Shown here: in pieces, positions 5,952 through 18,636 of the stretch | Position numbering within the stretch: position 1 is the stretch's first letter | How the letters are laid out: each line of letters starts with the position of its first letter | From: Vulcanimicrobiota bacterium | Lineage (GTDB): Bacteria; Vulcanimicrobiota; JAJTBE01 | Assembly (NCBI GenBank): GCA_021107945.1 | Contig: JAIORV010000118.1 | Coordinates: forward strand, 1 to 34,264 | DNA: 34,264 nt | Direction of reading: 5' to 3' | Program-made: the position numbers and the translations under genes | Notes under the pieces: generated by a model | The model's database searches: none | What the model was told of the DNA's origin: nothing | What the model saw: the letters and a program-made list of their open reading frames with translations, nothing else

Positions 5952-7838
5952 ATGATTTGCCCTATTTGTGGCACAAGCAACAAAGAAGACACTGTAAAGT
6001 GCACGAAATGCGGACTTATACTTTCTCCGGGTAAAATAGGCGCGCTCAGAAAAGCGGAGGAGAACCTCAGAACTAGTAAGAAAAAAAAGGTGTCCTCTCG
6101 CTCATTTCCTATGTACCTTGGCAAAGGCAGGTATTTGGTGAAGAAGAAGCTGGCCTCCGGGGGAATGAGTCGCGTGCTTCTTGCTAAAGATTCAAAAATG
6201 GACTGCTTTGTTGTGGTCAAGGAAATGCTTCCCTTTTTTCAAGATGACAAGGACGCCGAATACCTTGTAAATCGATTCCAGGAAGAGGCAAAACTTCTCT
6301 ATAGGCTTGATCATCCAAGGCTCCCGAAGGTAAAGGATTATTTCACCGAGGAAGACCGTCTTTACTTCATCATGCAATATATTGACGGCAAGACCCTGGC
6401 AAAGATTGCCCTCAATAGACCCGGGCAGAGAATAAAAATGGAAGAGGGACTGAAGTGGATGATGGAAGTAATAGAGATTCTTTCATATCTCCACAACCAG
6501 GATCCGCCGGTAATACATAGGGATATTAAACCGCATAATATCATGCTTGATAAAAGCAAGAGAATATACCTTGTCGATTTCGGAATCGCCAGGGAAGTAA
6601 CAGGGCAAGCGGGAACGGGTACAACAGTGGGGACATTCGGTTATGCCTCACCGGAGCACTTTACAGGGAAATTCCTCTTCTCTTCCGACCTTTACAGTCT
6701 TGGGGCTACATTCCATATGCTGCTTTCGGGGTCGGATCCCAGGGAAAGACCGCCTTTTGAATTTCCACCTTTGTCTGAATACAGGAATGATATACCTCCG
6801 GGACTGGAGGAGATTTTCAACAGGCTTCTGCAAAAAGATAGAAAAAAAAGGTACAGGACAGTCAATGAATTAAAGAAAGATTATTATACAATACTCTCGG
6901 GGGTTCATCGGAGAAAGGGAAAAACGAGAAAGAAGAGAGTGGGAGTGTCGCCTGATAGTGGTACAATAAGATTGCAGAAAGAAAAAATGATACCCCTTGA
7001 ATATAACACTTCAGGGGTGGAGATATTATCCAGGAATCCGGACATTGAAAAAGAAGATGAAAAAAGACACTTACCGTTATTTACTCCAAGATCCCCTATC
7101 GTAACAAAAGCAAGAAGGGTAACTAAAATAAAAGGGAAGAAAAAGGAAAAAAACAGTGAGGAAATCCTTGAGGAAATTCTTAAAAAACAGAAAGAAAAGA
7201 AGGAGGCTTTGGCAGAGGAATCAAAGACCGAGGGATTTGCAGAAAAGATAAAGCCACATCTCATTCCGCTTATTCTTATAGGATTGGTAATACTTGCCTC
7301 AATGGGATTTATAATGTTTTATGTCTGGAAATCCTTTATTGCCGCCAAGAAAGAAAGGATCGAATACCAGGTTAAAGCATATTCGAAATCTGAAAAGGCG
7401 ATATTTAAGATGAAAGATATTCTCAAGAATACAAAATATAAGCCTTCCACTCAAAAAGTTAAGAAATATATCAAGAAAAAAAGCGGGTTCAGGGTTTATC
7501 AAACATTTAAAGATCAGGATGCCGCCCGCAGAATTGCTAAATACCTCAGCTCAAAGGGTATTACGACAAAGGTAATTGAGGATCCCGATGAGGGTATTAT
7601 TGTTCGCCTTGGAGGAACGTTCAGGACCAGGAGGGAAGCGCAAAGATATGCAAACAGGGCGCAAGGAGTTATGCCTCTTATTTTCAAGGTAAGTTATAAT
7701 TACCACAAGATTCCATATACAACCTATAGGCTCACTCTGTCAGGAATTGCTACGAAGGAAGAAGCTAAAAAAATTAAAAAAGAATTTTCCAAACTCACCC
7801 ACCAGATAGTGATTGAAGAAAAAGTCATTAAAGAATGA
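5952..7838 (+). CDS. Zinc-ribbon Ser/Thr protein kinase with SPOR-like outer domain
   Basis: Predicted protein of 628 residues; ATG with AAAGGA upstream. Order of parts: a zinc ribbon (CPIC 3-6, CTKC 17-20); a Hanks-type kinase domain about 60-315 with ATP-binding Lys90, HRDIKPHN (189-196), DFG (209-211) and SPE (233-235); a Lys-rich linker with a charged coil (about 320-430); one transmembrane helix about 436-460; and an outer region 470-628. Residues 511-570 (GFRVYQTFKDQDAARRIAKY, then a GGTFRTRREAQRYA stretch) look like a SPOR domain, a fold known to bind denuded peptidoglycan. The analogy is to PASTA kinases, with a different wall sensor. It begins a three-gene run with an FHA-cyclase and a histidine kinase. 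Kinase call firm; SPOR call from pattern only. Confidence 0.92.
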   Translation: MICPICGTSNKEDTVKCTKCGLILSPGKIGALRKAEENLRTSKKKKVSSRSFPMYLGKGRYLVKKKLASGGMSRVLLAKDSKMDCFVVVKEMLPFFQDDKDAEYLVNRFQEEAKLLYRLDHPRLPKVKDYFTEEDRLYFIMQYIDGKTLAKIALNRPGQRIKMEEGLKWMMEVIEILSYLHNQDPPVIHRDIKPHNIMLDKSKRIYLVDFGIAREVTGQAGTGTTVGTFGYASPEHFTGKFLFSSDLYSLGATFHMLLSGSDPRERPPFEFPPLSEYRNDIPPGLEEIFNRLLQKDRKKRYRTVNELKKDYYTILSGVHRRKGKTRKKRVGVSPDSGTIRLQKEKMIPLEYNTSGVEILSRNPDIEKEDEKRHLPLFTPRSPIVTKARRVTKIKGKKKEKNSEEILEEILKKQKEKKEALAEESKTEGFAEKIKPHLIPLILIGLVILASMGFIMFYVWKSFIAAKKERIEYQVKAYSKSEKAIFKMKDILKNTKYKPSTQKVKKYIKKKSGFRVYQTFKDQDAARRIAKYLSSKGITTKVIEDPDEGIIVRLGGTFRTRREAQRYANRAQGVMPLIFKVSYNYHKIPYTTYRLTLSGIATKEEAKKIKKEFSKLTHQIVIEEKVIKE

Positions 7839-7848
7839 GGTTTATTAT

Positions 7849-9492
7849 ATGCCTGGTGCAGAATTCAATACTTTACAATCAAGATTTCACCTCATAAAGT
7901 TTATGGAAAAGGTAGTTGGAACTTTCGTGGGAACCAGCAACCAGATTGCTCTTATGGGAAAAAAGATGACCGTGGGACGCTCATCAAGATGTGATATAAT
8001 TATTAATGACGAAAAGATTGAAGACAGAAACACAACTTTCTTCATAGAAAGCGATTTGGTTAGTGTTATTGACCTTGATTCCGTCAGTGGAACATTCGTA
8101 AACGGTATGCGAATAAGGGGAAGGAACAAGCTCGATCATATGGATCAGGTCGTCATCGGAAACTCCAAATTCCTTTTCGTTGATAGATCATATCCATTCG
8201 ATCCGGCCGTGTTGGAAGACTATTTTAACGATACACTGCCCGATATAAAAAGCAATTATGAGTATAAATTGAAACAGGAAACCATGATAGGTCTCCACTC
8301 CGGGAAACTCACTCCGGGGATGTTTAACGCAAGGGGAAATGAAATATTACAGATACTCGAGGACATAGTATCGGGAAACTCACTGCCCGAATTGCTTGAA
8401 AAAATAATCGACTTCCTCTTCAGACAGTTCCCTGTTGACAGGGGATTCATACTGCTGCTCAACCCACAGACAAAGGAGCTTGCCCCGGTAGCTACAAGAT
8501 CAAGCGTTAAGACACTTGAGAAGAAGGGCAGACTCGCCATCAGTAAAACACTCATCAAGAAAGTCATGAAGGAGCAAACTGCAATACTCATTTGTGACAT
8601 GGGAGGAATCGACTCGAAAGATAAAACAAAGAGTATGCTGTTTCATGGCTTCACATCGGTAATGGTAGCTCCCATTATTTTTAATGGCGAGATAATGGGA
8701 ATTCTTCAACTTGATACAATCGAACACAACCACAGGTTGTCGGAAGATGACCTTGAGAAATTACAGGTTTATACAAATGTGATAGCACTTGCTATTGGAA
8801 ACGCCAGGATGAGAGAGCAACTCTGGGAAGAGGAGCATAAAAGACAGGCGTTGTCCAGGTATTTACCCAGAAAATTAATTGAACAGGTGCTTGTTGACGA
8901 GACATTAATTCCACCCGAGGGAGCACAGTGCGAGGTTGCGGTCTTCTTTGCCGATATAAGGGGATTCTCGACAATGTGCGGCCGACTCCCGCCAAGGGAT
9001 ATAATAGAAATTCTCAACGAATATTACAACGAAGTCAGTGACTGTATCTTTGAATATTCGGGGATGATTAATCAATTTGTAGGAGATGAGATCATGGCGA
9101 TCTTCGGAGGACCGTGGATCTCTGACCGGGACTTCAACCCTGTGGACGCCGCAGTTCAAGCTTCAAAGGACGTCATAAGGCAGATTTGCAAGATGAACGT
9201 GGAGAGACACGAGACCGGAAAGGAAACTATCTTTATTGGGGCAGGGATCGATTACGGCAGTGTGATAATCGGAAACCTGGGAAGCTCCAAGAAATTTGAA
9301 TTCACTGCAATAGGAAACACGGTTGTCATAGCAAGCAGGCTCTGCTCTGCAGCAAAAGAAAGCCAGATATTAATATCCGACAGAGTGAAGGACAAAGCTT
9401 CCAGGGAATTCACAATGGAAAAGATAGAACCCATAATTGCAAAAAATGTCAAGGATCCAATCGAAGCCTACAGAGTTTTTTGGAATAGGTGA
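7849..9492 (+). CDS. FHA-GAF-class III nucleotidyl cyclase homology protein
   Basis: Predicted protein of 547 residues. The ATG at 7849 has TGAGG (7836-7840), which includes the kinase stop codon, so the genes are coupled; the earlier frame start at 7813 lies inside the kinase. Residues 39-112 form an FHA domain (VGRSSRCDI, then DLDSVSGTFVNG), though the usual S-x-x-H loop is replaced by RNTTF. Residues about 178-320 are a GAF domain, followed by a linker helix. Residues 363-545 are a class III cyclase domain with both metal aspartates (Asp369 in FADIRGFS, Asp413 in VGDE) and Arg497. Against mammalian cyclases, the base-reading Lys is Gln409 and the catalytic Asn is Val493; Thr486 sits at the second specificity position. 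The cyclic nucleotide product, and activity itself, are uncertain. The adjacent kinase is a likely partner of the FHA domain. Confidence 0.9.
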   Translation: MPGAEFNTLQSRFHLIKFMEKVVGTFVGTSNQIALMGKKMTVGRSSRCDIIINDEKIEDRNTTFFIESDLVSVIDLDSVSGTFVNGMRIRGRNKLDHMDQVVIGNSKFLFVDRSYPFDPAVLEDYFNDTLPDIKSNYEYKLKQETMIGLHSGKLTPGMFNARGNEILQILEDIVSGNSLPELLEKIIDFLFRQFPVDRGFILLLNPQTKELAPVATRSSVKTLEKKGRLAISKTLIKKVMKEQTAILICDMGGIDSKDKTKSMLFHGFTSVMVAPIIFNGEIMGILQLDTIEHNHRLSEDDLEKLQVYTNVIALAIGNARMREQLWEEEHKRQALSRYLPRKLIEQVLVDETLIPPEGAQCEVAVFFADIRGFSTMCGRLPPRDIIEILNEYYNEVSDCIFEYSGMINQFVGDEIMAIFGGPWISDRDFNPVDAAVQASKDVIRQICKMNVERHETGKETIFIGAGIDYGSVIIGNLGSSKKFEFTAIGNTVVIASRLCSAAKESQILISDRVKDKASREFTMEKIEPIIAKNVKDPIEAYRVFWNR

Positions 9493-9495
9493 TAT

Positions 9496-11283
9496 ATGTT
9501 CAAAAACATTCGTAGCAAATTAATCCTTTCTTATATCCTGCTCATTGTTATATCCATGACGCTAACAGTCCTGTTCCTGCACTGGTCGATGAAGAACACG
9601 CTTGAAAAAGAGCTTGTCAAACAAGTAAAATATCAGTGCAAGACATATTCCGACCTCATATATTCGAGGATAACGGGACCCGAGGATTTCGCTTCCAGGG
9701 CAAAAGAAGTAGTAAGCGAATTTGTCCCGGGGAAAAATTACGGACTTACCGTTTATAACATAAAGGGGCAAACACTTGCCGGATCGCATGAGGGAAAAAC
9801 GGAACTGCCGCCGGACGCATTGATCAAACTAAAAGCCGGGAAAGCAATACACTGGTATGAAAGCGTCAATGGCGATCGGATGCTCCATGTAGCCACACCT
9901 ATAAGCAGTTTTGGAAGCGAATCCACCACCGACGGTTATCTGGGAATAATCGATCTCGCCACCCCCCTGGCGCAGATTGACTCAACATATCAGGGTCTTA
10001 GAAATCAACTCCTGATTGCCATTGCGATATCAGTTGCGTTAACTCTTCTTATCTCTCTCATCCTTGCCCAGACTCTCACGAAACCGATATCTCAGATTGA
10101 AAAAGTTACGGGTCACATAGCGGAGGGTAATTTTTCCACAAGGGTTGACTATGGGGGACAGGATGAAATCAGGTCTCTTGCAGACACAATCAATTATATG
10201 TCGGCGAAAATCGAGGCCAATATCGAGGAAATACTTGGTGAGAAAAATAAAATGAATGCCCTTCTTTCCGCCATGCCCGAGGGAGTGATCGCTCTGGACA
10301 GAAACGGCGAGATTCGCTTCCTTAACAGCGCAGCGTACAAATTTCTGATCATTAATAATGATGAAGTGGTTACAGGTAGAAAACTGTTTGACACCTGGAA
10401 GGAAAAAGAAGTTGAGGAGTTTTTCAGGGAAGGCGTTGATAAGGCCGGGATATATATGAGGGAAATTGCAATTCCCCCGAGAATCCTGAAACTATACCTG
10501 GTTCCATTTGGTGAGCGGGAACATGCCGTATCGGGAATGATGATGATAATAAGGGATATCACGGATTTACGACGCCTTGAAGAAACAAGAACAAGGTTTC
10601 TAAGCAGTATATCACATGAACTCAGAACGCCGCTCACAATAATAAAGGGCTTCATACATACGATAATAGATGAACCGCCCATCGCCCAAAATAAACAGAC
10701 TTCCGATGCACTTCATATAATGGACGGAGAGACTGACAGGCTCACCAGACTTGTTAACGAGCTAATGGAATTGTCACGTCTTCGCAGTAAAAAACTTACA
10801 TTCGAGATGGAGACTCTCAGGGCGGATAAAATTGTGGAGAGTACAGTTCAGTCCATGAAAAATAATGCCGAAAGAATGAATATATCGATTGAATTACATA
10901 ATAACGCCGGTGAAGCTGAAATACTCGGAGACCACGACAGGCTCAAACAGGTGGTCATAAATCTCATCGACAATGCTATAAAATACACGCCGGGCAAGGG
11001 CAAGGTAACGGTCAGGACTCATATTAAAGATAATCGCTGGATCCTGGATGTTGAGGATACGGGAATGGGAATATCAAAAGATGAATTGCCTTTCCTCTTC
11101 GAGAGATTTTTCAGAACCAAGGACAGAAATAAGAAAAAATATATAAAGGGAACCGGCCTGGGCATGGCAATAGTTAAGGAAATTGTTGACGCCCACAATG
11201 GCAAGATTACAGTTGACAGTGTCGAGGGTAAAGGAACGAAAATTCATATATCGATTCCCCTGGAGAGGGCGGATAACGGATAG
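9496..11283 (+). CDS. Membrane sensor histidine kinase (HAMP-PAS-HisKA-HATPase)
   Basis: Predicted protein of 595 residues, starting 3 bases after the cyclase stop, with AGGTGAT as ribosome binding site. Transmembrane helices at about 9-29 and 171-194 enclose an external sensor region of about 140 residues. Then a HAMP domain (195-247), a PAS-like domain (about 250-360), the dimerisation/phosphoacceptor domain with His374 in SHELRTPL, and the ATPase domain with N-box Asn493, DTGMGIS (521-527) and GTGLGMA (552-558). The layout matches PhoR/WalK-type kinases. No response regulator gene is adjacent, so its partner lies elsewhere. Co-transcription with the Ser/Thr kinase and cyclase suggests one envelope-sensing circuit (inference). 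Confidence 0.93.
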   Translation: MFKNIRSKLILSYILLIVISMTLTVLFLHWSMKNTLEKELVKQVKYQCKTYSDLIYSRITGPEDFASRAKEVVSEFVPGKNYGLTVYNIKGQTLAGSHEGKTELPPDALIKLKAGKAIHWYESVNGDRMLHVATPISSFGSESTTDGYLGIIDLATPLAQIDSTYQGLRNQLLIAIAISVALTLLISLILAQTLTKPISQIEKVTGHIAEGNFSTRVDYGGQDEIRSLADTINYMSAKIEANIEEILGEKNKMNALLSAMPEGVIALDRNGEIRFLNSAAYKFLIINNDEVVTGRKLFDTWKEKEVEEFFREGVDKAGIYMREIAIPPRILKLYLVPFGEREHAVSGMMMIIRDITDLRRLEETRTRFLSSISHELRTPLTIIKGFIHTIIDEPPIAQNKQTSDALHIMDGETDRLTRLVNELMELSRLRSKKLTFEMETLRADKIVESTVQSMKNNAERMNISIELHNNAGEAEILGDHDRLKQVVINLIDNAIKYTPGKGKVTVRTHIKDNRWILDVEDTGMGISKDELPFLFERFFRTKDRNKKKYIKGTGLGMAIVKEIVDAHNGKITVDSVEGKGTKIHISIPLERADNG

Positions 11284-12005: not shown

Positions 12006-13205
12006 TTAAACAGGCTCAAGGTCAGCGCGGCAAAGACAGGCAACTCCCCTGCCGAATCCGGAAAAACCCATGCCTCTTGAGTCGGGAATCTCAAGGTCGA
12101 GAATGCCCGATCCTACTCTTAAAATACTTGCAAGATGGTGCAAAACAGGATCAATACTACTTTCCAGGATACCTTCATCAATAATCAGCTTTATATTGAT
12201 GCTTGAAATTTTATATCCAATCGAGTCTATTTCGTCAGCAATTTCCCTCAGGTGCTGAGCATTTTTGGGCTCGAAATCAACACCGCCGGCGGATGACAGG
12301 GCTTTCCCCATTGCCTTTACCAGCACATCGGGATGTCCTTCTTCCTGCCCCTTTCTGGATATTAACTCCATGCCTCCCAATATGAGAGGACGTTTTGGCT
12401 CCAGGTGAGCTATCGAAAAGCCGCAGCCCGAGCGGAAATAAAACCCGGGTATCTCCGTATATCCTCCGATCCCAACCGATATTGCCCCACGGGTTACAAC
12501 CGTTTTAATAAAATCATATAAATCATTGGGTTTTACTCTTAAATATTCTTCCCGGGACTCCGGCATTACAGCTTTGTGTTCTATTTTATCCAACACTCTT
12601 GAGATGATTTGTTCCGTCTCTTTTACGAAAAAATCATCCTTTGCTTCATCAAATAGGAATTGCGCAGCGGAAAGATGACCCATTCCCCATTTTAAATAAG
12701 CTTCCTTGTTAAACACATACCTGAAATTCTTCAGATCCAGATCAACAAGTCTGAATACCTCAAGCTTTACCCTGCTATATTCAACGCCGAATTCCAGGTT
12801 GAGGGTCCGGGCGGCAACACTGCCTCCTTCACGAATCAGACCCATTACCAGGTGAGTGGAATCTATTTGCGACAATCCCATGTCTATAGCTTCATCCATT
12901 GCCATTTCAAAAATGACCTTCATCCTTGCACTAAAACCGGGATCTTTGCCGGGAATAACGTCGAGAAAACCAGAATCAGGTTCGACCGTCATAAACAGCA
13001 TCTCTTCAAATAACTCAGGCTTAGTCAAGGTGGATACGTTTTGTAAGGCACATTTTAATATAGCTATTTTTCCAGGATTTTCAGTCTTCATTATCGCCAT
13101 TAATAAATGCGCCGAACTAATTTCACCTCTATTCATCCTGATTGCATCTTCACGGGTGACTTCCAGTATGTCGAGAGCTTCTTTTGTGAAATAAGTATCT
13201 TTCAA
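12006..13205 (-). CDS. Stand-alone Clp N-terminal-domain protein with unknown C-terminal domain
   Basis: Predicted protein of 399 residues on the minus strand; TTG start with GGGAGGT (13211-13217) about 5 bases upstream. Residues 6-60 (FTKEALDILEVTREDA, then HLLMAIM) and 91-150 (FSARMKVIFEMAMDEAIDMG, then HLVMGLIREGGSVAARTL) are two Clp-N repeats, the substrate- and adaptor-receiving part of ClpC/ClpA. No AAA+ ATPase follows: there is no Walker A or B motif. Residues 160-399 form a domain I do not recognise, with a Gly-rich stretch (AISVGIGGYTEIPGFYF) and a C-terminal GFSGFGRGVACLC. It could be a regulator or adaptor of Clp proteolysis, or a ClpS/MecA-like decoy; function not claimed. Convergent with upp. 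Confidence 0.8.
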   Translation of the reverse strand: MKDTYFTKEALDILEVTREDAIRMNRGEISSAHLLMAIMKTENPGKIAILKCALQNVSTLTKPELFEEMLFMTVEPDSGFLDVIPGKDPGFSARMKVIFEMAMDEAIDMGLSQIDSTHLVMGLIREGGSVAARTLNLEFGVEYSRVKLEVFRLVDLDLKNFRYVFNKEAYLKWGMGHLSAAQFLFDEAKDDFFVKETEQIISRVLDKIEHKAVMPESREEYLRVKPNDLYDFIKTVVTRGAISVGIGGYTEIPGFYFRSGCGFSIAHLEPKRPLILGGMELISRKGQEEGHPDVLVKAMGKALSSAGGVDFEPKNAQHLREIADEIDSIGYKISSINIKLIIDEGILESSIDPVLHHLASILRVGSGILDLEIPDSRGMGFSGFGRGVACLCRADLEPV

Positions 13206-13777
13206 GATTTACCTCCCGGTTTATTATATAAATTCTTTGTTGAAAAATTTGTGAAAATAGCAATATATCCTTTTTTAAGATGACTATTAACTATAGTTTT
13301 TCGCTAAAGGAATGGAAAATTAATAGAATTCCATTCCCAATAATATTTTTTTCACCACAAAGGAAACGGAAAACGGGGAGCACAAGCCTGATCTGTAGGA
13401 GGGACGTCCTCGTCCCGATAAACGGATATTGCAAGATGTACGTGTTTTTCCACCACGAAGCCACGGAGAACACGAAGAAAGAAAATGATGGCAAAGAACG
13501 CAGTCCGGATCTGTTTTTTTCACCACAGAGGACACAGAGACCACAGAGAGGAATGGGATTTTGAGAATGGATACAGTGATAATAAACCCATCTCCCGCTT
13601 CTCGCCTCTCATGTATAACTAATCTTTGATGACATTTTTTTTCACCACAAAGGAAACGGGGAACGGAAAACGCAAATCGGTGGCAATGTTGATTTATTAT
13701 GGAGGGAGGAGGAATACATAATAAACTCATAGAAGTGAAGGATTTGGTTTTGATTTTATTTATTGTATTGTAGAAAT
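13206..13777. repeat. Repeat-filled spacer, no gene
   Basis: Four members of the CACCAC repeat family lie here in one orientation, each led by a T-run: TTTTTTTCACCACAAAGGAAACGG (split over 13347-13372), CCACCACGAAGCCACGGAG (13450-13478), TTCACCACAGAGGACACAGAG (about 13518-13550) and TTCACCACAAAGGAAACGGG (about 13638-13663). A GTAGGAG-plus-hairpin unit with arms GGGACG/CGTCCC is at 13394-13424. CTCCCGCTTCTCGCCTCTC (about 13590-13610) is a further low-complexity repeat type. No promoter for the efflux operon could be assigned. Confidence 0.8.
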
Positions 13778-18100: not shown

Positions 18101-18636
18101 GAGCGGGGGCGGTATCCAGGAGGGTGCTGGGCATTACCGTCTTCAGCGGCATGTTGGCGGCTACCTCTCTGGGAGTTTTTTTCATACCTCTTTTGTATGT
18201 CTTGATTCAGGGATTGGTAAACCGTTTAACGAAGAAGCCTGACAAAATTTCCAAAGATAAACCCGGGGATATTCCAGAAAAGAAGTCTCTGCACAAACCT
18301 GCAAAACCTGCAATCAACAATGATGTAAAAGTACAAAAAGAAAAACCTGCAAAGGTCTCCCGGAGTGACAAATCTCCTGATAAGCCTGCAAAACCTGCAG
18401 TCAGCGATGATGTAAAAGTACAAAAGGAAAAACCTGCAAAGGTCTCCCAGAGTGACAAATCTCCTGATAAGCCTGCAAAATCTGCAGTCAGCGATGATGT
18501 AAAAGTACAAAAGGAAAAACCTGCAAAGGTCTCCCGGAGCGACAAGTCTCCTGATAAGCCTGCAAAACTTGCAGTCAGTGAAAAAGTGAAAGGACAGGTT
18601 GATGAACCGACAAAGATCTTACCGAGCGAGGAATGA
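15124..18636 (+). CDS. RND multidrug efflux pump (HAE-1 / AcrB type) with repeat tail
   Basis: Predicted protein of 1170 residues; GTG start overlapping the previous stop, with GGAGG upstream. It is a proton-driven exporter in the inner membrane. Family marks: N-terminal [20 protein letters not shown], paired aspartates Asp408-Asp409 of transmembrane helix 4 ([14 protein letters not shown]), Lys939 in helix 10 ([16 protein letters not shown]), and [14 protein letters not shown] opening the second half. AcrB-type pumps end near 1040-1050; this one continues for about 120 residues in a Lys/Pro/Ala/Ser-rich cytoplasmic tail built from a 29-residue tandem repeat. Drug specificity cannot be read. 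Confidence 0.95.
18304..18636. repeat. 87-bp in-frame tandem repeat in the RND pump tail
   Basis: Nearly identical 87-base units lie at 18304-18390, 18391-18477 and 18478-18564, with a diverged fourth start from 18565. Each encodes 29 residues of the form [18 protein letters not shown] followed by [11 protein letters not shown]. The copies differ at few bases, which points to recent expansion or gene conversion. Confidence 0.95.

Follow-up and report, generated by a model that had tools for sequence, protein, structure and literature searches.

The N-terminal domain of ClpC (Clp_N) is the client-docking domain of a protein-degrading machine, and IspF is an enzyme in the synthesis of isoprenoid building blocks. 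Among Clp_N proteins that stand alone, ClpC2 acts as both sensor and sponge, sensing and sequestering peptide that targets ClpC1 (PMC10030653), and the ClpT proteins are accessory proteins that associate with the Clp protease of plastids (PMC4243950). In the ClpC N-domain, Glu32 and Glu106, one in each phospho-arginine (pArg) pocket, are crucial for pArg binding (PMC12583610). In IspF, Asp8, His10 and His42 are strictly conserved (PMC3927217), and a possible feedback role of the cavity in the IspF trimer has been described as unexplained (PMC5821942). The two fields meet in plants, where ClpC1 directs the MEP-pathway enzyme DXS to degradation and ClpB3 directs it to refolding (PMC4729485). The literature searched, whose coverage was incomplete, contained no paper that mentions IspF together with either the N-terminal domain of Clp or the term pseudoenzyme. 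Here we describe P0001, a protein encoded in a 34,264-nucleotide stretch of DNA (the window) that, judged from its sequence, belongs to the stand-alone Clp_N proteins and is unusual in being joined to a pseudoenzyme. Together with a second fusion in the same phylum, it hints at an unrecognised link between Clp proteolysis and isoprenoid synthesis.

The P0001 gene

The open reading frame of P0001 was real: it lay on the minus strand, began with a TTG codon behind a GGGAGG ribosome-binding site and had coding-like codon use (Table 1). In codon use the whole gene scored 0.26 bits per codon; upp scored 0.28, and a spurious reading frame beside P0001 scored -0.10. The score resembled that of the neighbours in each of the three parts of the gene (0.28, 0.23 and 0.26 bits per codon), and such an even coding signature gave no sign of decay. 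P0001 is known from one genome. Upstream, a 136-aa reading frame on the minus strand (13320-13730) did not have coding-like codon use; it contained four copies of the repeat YYTYNGTGGTGRAAAAA, where 0.06 were expected by chance.

Table 1. Features of the P0001 gene, in positions of the window
Feature	Position	Strand	Details
Whole gene P0001	12006..13205	-	399 aa; double Clp_N, linker and pseudo-IspF
Stop codon	12006-12008	-	
TTG start codon	13203-13205	-	
Ribosome-binding site	13213..13218	-	GGGAGG, from sequence; 7 bases ahead of the TTG start
Double Clp_N, ClpC N-domain type	12741..13190	-	Residues 6-155; repeats at about 6-75 and 91-155
Linker/middle region	12438..12740	-	Residues 156-256; no family match
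IspF (YgbB) domain	12024..12437	-	Residues 257-394; catalytic residues lost by replacement or deletion; glycines of the core and hydrophobic residues of the cavity retained

Identity of the two halves

Pfam PF02861 matched the second Clp_N repeat (E 2e-7), and phmmer matched both repeats to the ClpC N-domain (E 2.8e-16). The AlphaFold2 model had a pLDDT of about 90 over most of residues 1-155, and a Foldseek search with it retrieved ClpC N-domains at a TM score of 0.8 of the target, with ClpC2 and ClpT2 also matched. No AAA+ module was detected by Pfam in the 399 residues, where two would be expected of a ClpC unfoldase. A preliminary description of the locus had reported two Clp_N repeats without an AAA+ module, and these searches bore that out.

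The same description had given the reading frame its correct coordinates and had called the remainder an unknown 240-residue domain with no recognised motif; this last part was wrong. The C-terminal region consists of a linker of about 100 residues and an IspF domain of about 140 residues, as found with Pfam, TIGR00151, PDB chains and Foldseek. Profile matches identify residues 257-394 as an IspF (YgbB, MEcPP synthase) domain, the fold being covered over the full profile: PF02542 was matched from position 1 to 152 of 155 (E 4.9e-10; score 40.4 bits, cut-off 26.7). TIGR00151 ispF matched with E 3.3e-10 and 40.2 bits, which is below the NCBIfam cut-off of 116.45, and IspF chains of the PDB matched the C-terminal part in a sequence search. 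Structure prediction and a fold search of this region, as the preliminary description had suggested, led to IspF and IspDF, these two making up all of the best 50 Foldseek matches of the 155-399 model. That model had a mean pLDDT of 54, rising to 70-90 across large parts of the IspF core; its alignment held four IspF rows, so that the Foldseek match is partly circular and the sequence matches serve as the independent evidence for IspF identity.

Residues 156-256 matched no family; a helical hairpin was predicted there with low confidence. The linker starts with DLDLKNFR, resembling the DLKLSNFR of a stand-alone Clp_N paralogue encoded on contig C30 of the same genome (motif DLxLxNFR after Clp_N). 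Comparison of the middle region with IspD, YacL, RadA and the ClpC M-domain, of which it might have been a remnant, was not significant (lowest shuffle p 0.02 among 13 comparisons), and an equation of its LRVKPNDL with the C-terminal KITTPEDL of IspD was unsupported. It did not match phage stand-alone Clp_N proteins. Full-length folding from mixed alignments was set aside because IspF was misaligned to Clp_N.

Active-site residues of the IspF domain

P0001 was aligned with 26 IspFs, and the comparison used the 57 columns whose conservation in this panel reached 90%. The metal ligands D8, H10 and H42 were replaced by S, A and K, respectively. Further changes were S35 to P, D46 to K, P103 to G, K130 to E and E135 to R, and the FPDTD loop stretch with D56, G58 and F61 was deleted; H34 and D38 were kept. 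Only 2 of the 14 active-site columns were kept in P0001, against 26 of the other 43 (Fisher p 0.0046), a p value to be taken as a guide since the deletion makes columns dependent and the active-site list came only in part from papers (PMC3927217, PMC5821942). The hydrophobic residues of the trimer cavity, F7, I99 and F139, were kept in kind (F, I, F). The residues capping the cavity were changed (R142 to F, E144 to R), indicating that ligand binding there may be lost. As IspF is metal-dependent and the metal ligands are missing, MEcPP synthase activity of P0001 is very unlikely and the domain appears catalytically dead.

Genome context

A canonical stand-alone ispF was present in the same genome (contig C40, 241 bits), together with ispD and a dxs-like gene, the latter identified by eye, so that the cell need not rely on P0001 for the enzyme. 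The separate canonical gene makes P0001 a pseudoenzyme paralogue. Among 147 genomes of the phylum, a second complete IspF match was found only in this one; the other doubles were fragments. The preliminary description had held that a known enzyme family accounting for the protein without any Clp link would speak against its reading. A known enzyme family was matched, but it does not explain P0001, since the catalytic residues are gone and an intact IspF is encoded elsewhere in the genome. On C40, clpB and ispF were divergent neighbours 303 bases apart (L063); the 16 further ispF loci compared within the phylum did not show this adjacency, which may be due to chance.

The genome encoded many Clp_N proteins, among them the ATPases ClpC (C24), ClpB (C40) and two ClpC/ClpB-like ATPases (C88 and C35), and two other stand-alone Clp_N proteins, on C30 (299 aa) and C13 (147 aa). 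The C30 protein (L061:6453-7352, plus strand) is a double Clp_N with the pArg glutamates kept, and its gene lay about 1.3 kb from the dxs-like gene, the two being separated by a citrate-synthase-like gene. A one-residue insertion was common to the C30 paralogue and P0001; a sister relation of the two was not recovered in a tree of Clp_N domains. On C35, a cluster (L058, L059) comprised two DnaK-like genes, a ClpB-like ATPase, a Ser/Thr kinase and a 1385-aa protein. The ATPase (671 aa, with Clp_N) matched the PADLOC DolB and PDC-M37B models, and the 1385-aa protein had cyclase-like, CHAT and TIR parts and weak Clp_N repeats.

P0001 was convergent with upp. The Ser/Thr kinase cluster that the preliminary description had noted nearby was real, with Ser/Thr kinase, FHA-GAF-cyclase and histidine kinase genes at 5952-11283; it lay on the opposite strand and beyond upp, so that operon linkage with P0001 is unsupported. 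No MEP genes were found near P0001 in the window, and no defence-system model matched P0001.

Relatives and a second fusion

Searches of 149 genomes of the phylum, of plasmids, of phages and of IMG/VR recovered neither a full-length relative nor an orthologue of P0001. GTDB contigs contained none either when searched with exact 8-residue patterns, which would miss distant relatives. The architecture itself was seen twice in the phylum, with an intact IspF in genome G005 and a dead one in P0001. The G005 protein, from another family, is a 360-aa double Clp_N-linker-IspF fusion (L114:5816-6898, minus strand, contig C6) in which D8, H10, H42, FPDTD and E135 were all present and the pArg glutamates were kept. 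It was the sole IspF of its genome and had no full-length match in the other genomes of the set. The gene before it overlaps it and is LuxC-like as judged by eye. In a tree of IspF domains the P0001 branch was about 9 changes per site long and unplaced, and the tree failed to tie the two proteins to one fusion event. Their linkers showed no clear similarity.

A Band_7/SPFH domain was joined to a canonical IspF at one further locus (L007, genome G141, C280), which could be genuine or a product of misassembly. Double Clp_N proteins that stand alone, about 190-390 aa in length, were seen in many IMG/VR contigs (L071-L086, L089-L091 and L093) and in the phages Myrna and Phabba. Most of them kept the pArg glutamates, and their C-terminal tails were short and varied; they are possible ClpC decoys.

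Proposed function and origin of the fusion

The preliminary description had cast the protein as an adaptor or a competitor in Clp proteolysis, or else as a sensor using a borrowed ligand-binding fold. A stand-alone Clp_N receptor is still the best frame, with ClpC2 and ClpT as characterised precedents; the phospho-arginine route is unlikely, as set out below. Our best explanation, held tentatively, is that P0001 is a non-enzymatic regulator in which a stand-alone receptor of the ClpC type sits on a dead IspF core. The core would form a homotrimer as other IspFs do, or mix with genuine IspF, and the trimer would thus display three Clp_N pairs. These heads could use a partly kept hydrophobic groove to capture adaptors or clients that are unfolded or peptide-like, and could either compete with ClpC or feed it. 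The core may serve only for oligomerisation or may sense an isoprenoid (di)phosphate, the F, I and F at the trimer axis being kept. The outcome would be a tuned Clp-dependent handling of a set of clients, possibly including MEP-pathway enzymes.

The state of the groove bears on this reading and on a rival one, in which the Clp_N pair works alone as a ClpC2-like sponge or sensor for toxic peptides, phage proteins or ClpC clients, and IspF is an inert oligomerisation scaffold with no isoprenoid link. Four residues of the groove or its contacts were compared. F80, K85 and E89, on the side of the groove to which cyclic peptides bind, were kept in P0001 as F91, K96 and E100 (the K85 to K96 correspondence being taken from the Clp_N alignment). 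The fourth, equivalent to F2, which is critical for cyclomarin binding, was lost. These residues are suggestive only of a possible peptide-groove function. The ClpC2 precedent (PMC10030653), the wide occurrence of stand-alone double Clp_N proteins in phage contigs and the presence of others in this genome all suit the rival reading. It is nevertheless rather unlikely: besides the loss of F2, the N-terminal dimer domain of ClpC2 is absent and its operator was not found near P0001, and the recurrence of IspF as the partner in G005 is left unexplained.

Gene order in related genomes points to how such fusions may arise. G012 carried clpC-radA-yacL-ispD-ispF...gltX, the same set was found in G010, and G013 carried clpC-radA-yacL-ispF. 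Thus clpC and ispF lay within one gene cluster in three other families, a possible route to fusion; the order clpC-radA-yacL-ispD-ispF is known from Firmicutes as well. In the genome of P0001 the cluster was dispersed (clpC on C24, yacL-ispD on C48, ispF on C40). Deletion or duplication within a clpC...ispF cluster would fuse the 5' part of clpC with ispF, and these gene orders suggest it as the origin. The same route, the active-looking IspF of the G005 fusion, and the extreme divergence and missing orthologue of P0001 would also fit a chimera of a rearranged cluster that was once an enzyme like that of G005, is now decaying given a second ispF, and has no important role. We consider this unlikely, as it sits poorly with 399 open codons, a good ribosome-binding site and an even coding signature; losses concentrated in active-site columns, with structural ones kept, are unexpected under neutral drift.

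An IspF domain that still takes up a nucleotide or (di)phosphate and carries out some reaction without the IspF metal site is very improbable: the fold, H34 and D38 were kept, but the three metal ligands and S35, D46, D56, G58, F61, P103, K130 and E135 were all replaced or deleted. Least probable of all is a phospho-arginine receptor or adaptor competing with ClpC for McsB-tagged clients, since despite a ClpC-type Clp_N with T7 kept both pocket glutamates were replaced in the residue alignment (E32 by A32, E106 by T117; PMC12583610), and no ATP-guanido (McsB-type arginine) kinase was matched in the genome by a search whose own controls also gave no match.

Clp_N-IspF proteins might be a dedicated control point, so far undescribed, that connects Clp proteostasis to the making of isoprenoid precursors; G005 would have an enzyme bearing a Clp receptor and P0001 would be a duplicated, dead, trimeric sensor-adaptor steering Clp clients by isoprenoid status; we regard this fuller scheme as distinctly doubtful. 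The intact and dead fusions nonetheless form a natural pair for asking whether Clp regulates the bacterial MEP pathway. Such a link in bacteria would parallel the regulation of DXS in plastids (PMC4729485), and the pair also bears on a possible sensing role of the IspF trimer cavity (PMC5821942).

Comparison with known systems

Compared with IspF (PF02542, TIGR00151), P0001 has the fold, the full-length profile, the structural glycines, the RPLILGG segment and the cavity residues F7, I99 and F139. It differs in having lost the metal ligands, S35, E135, P103 of the cytidine loop and the FPDTD loop, and in its position behind Clp_N. Mycobacterial ClpC2 is likewise a double Clp_N without AAA+, and structures of its C-terminal domain (8b9o, 8ad9) were among those matched. 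ClpC2, however, has an N-terminal dimerisation domain ahead of Clp_N and binds its own operator (PMC10030653), whereas P0001 opens with Clp_N at residue 6 and carries IspF behind. A search near P0001 for the ClpC2 operator, CGTCAAC-n5-GTTGACG, gave only a chance-level match at 18141. Plant ClpT1 and ClpT2 also have the Clp_N fold without AAA+, and ClpT2 (4y0c) was among the Foldseek matches; they are accessory proteins of the ClpPR core and have no IspF domain. A further counterpart is the G005 fusion, which was found here and is not a published system. It has the same order of double Clp_N, linker and IspF as P0001, but differs in its intact IspF active site, its place as the only IspF of its genome, its shorter linker and its retained pArg glutamates.
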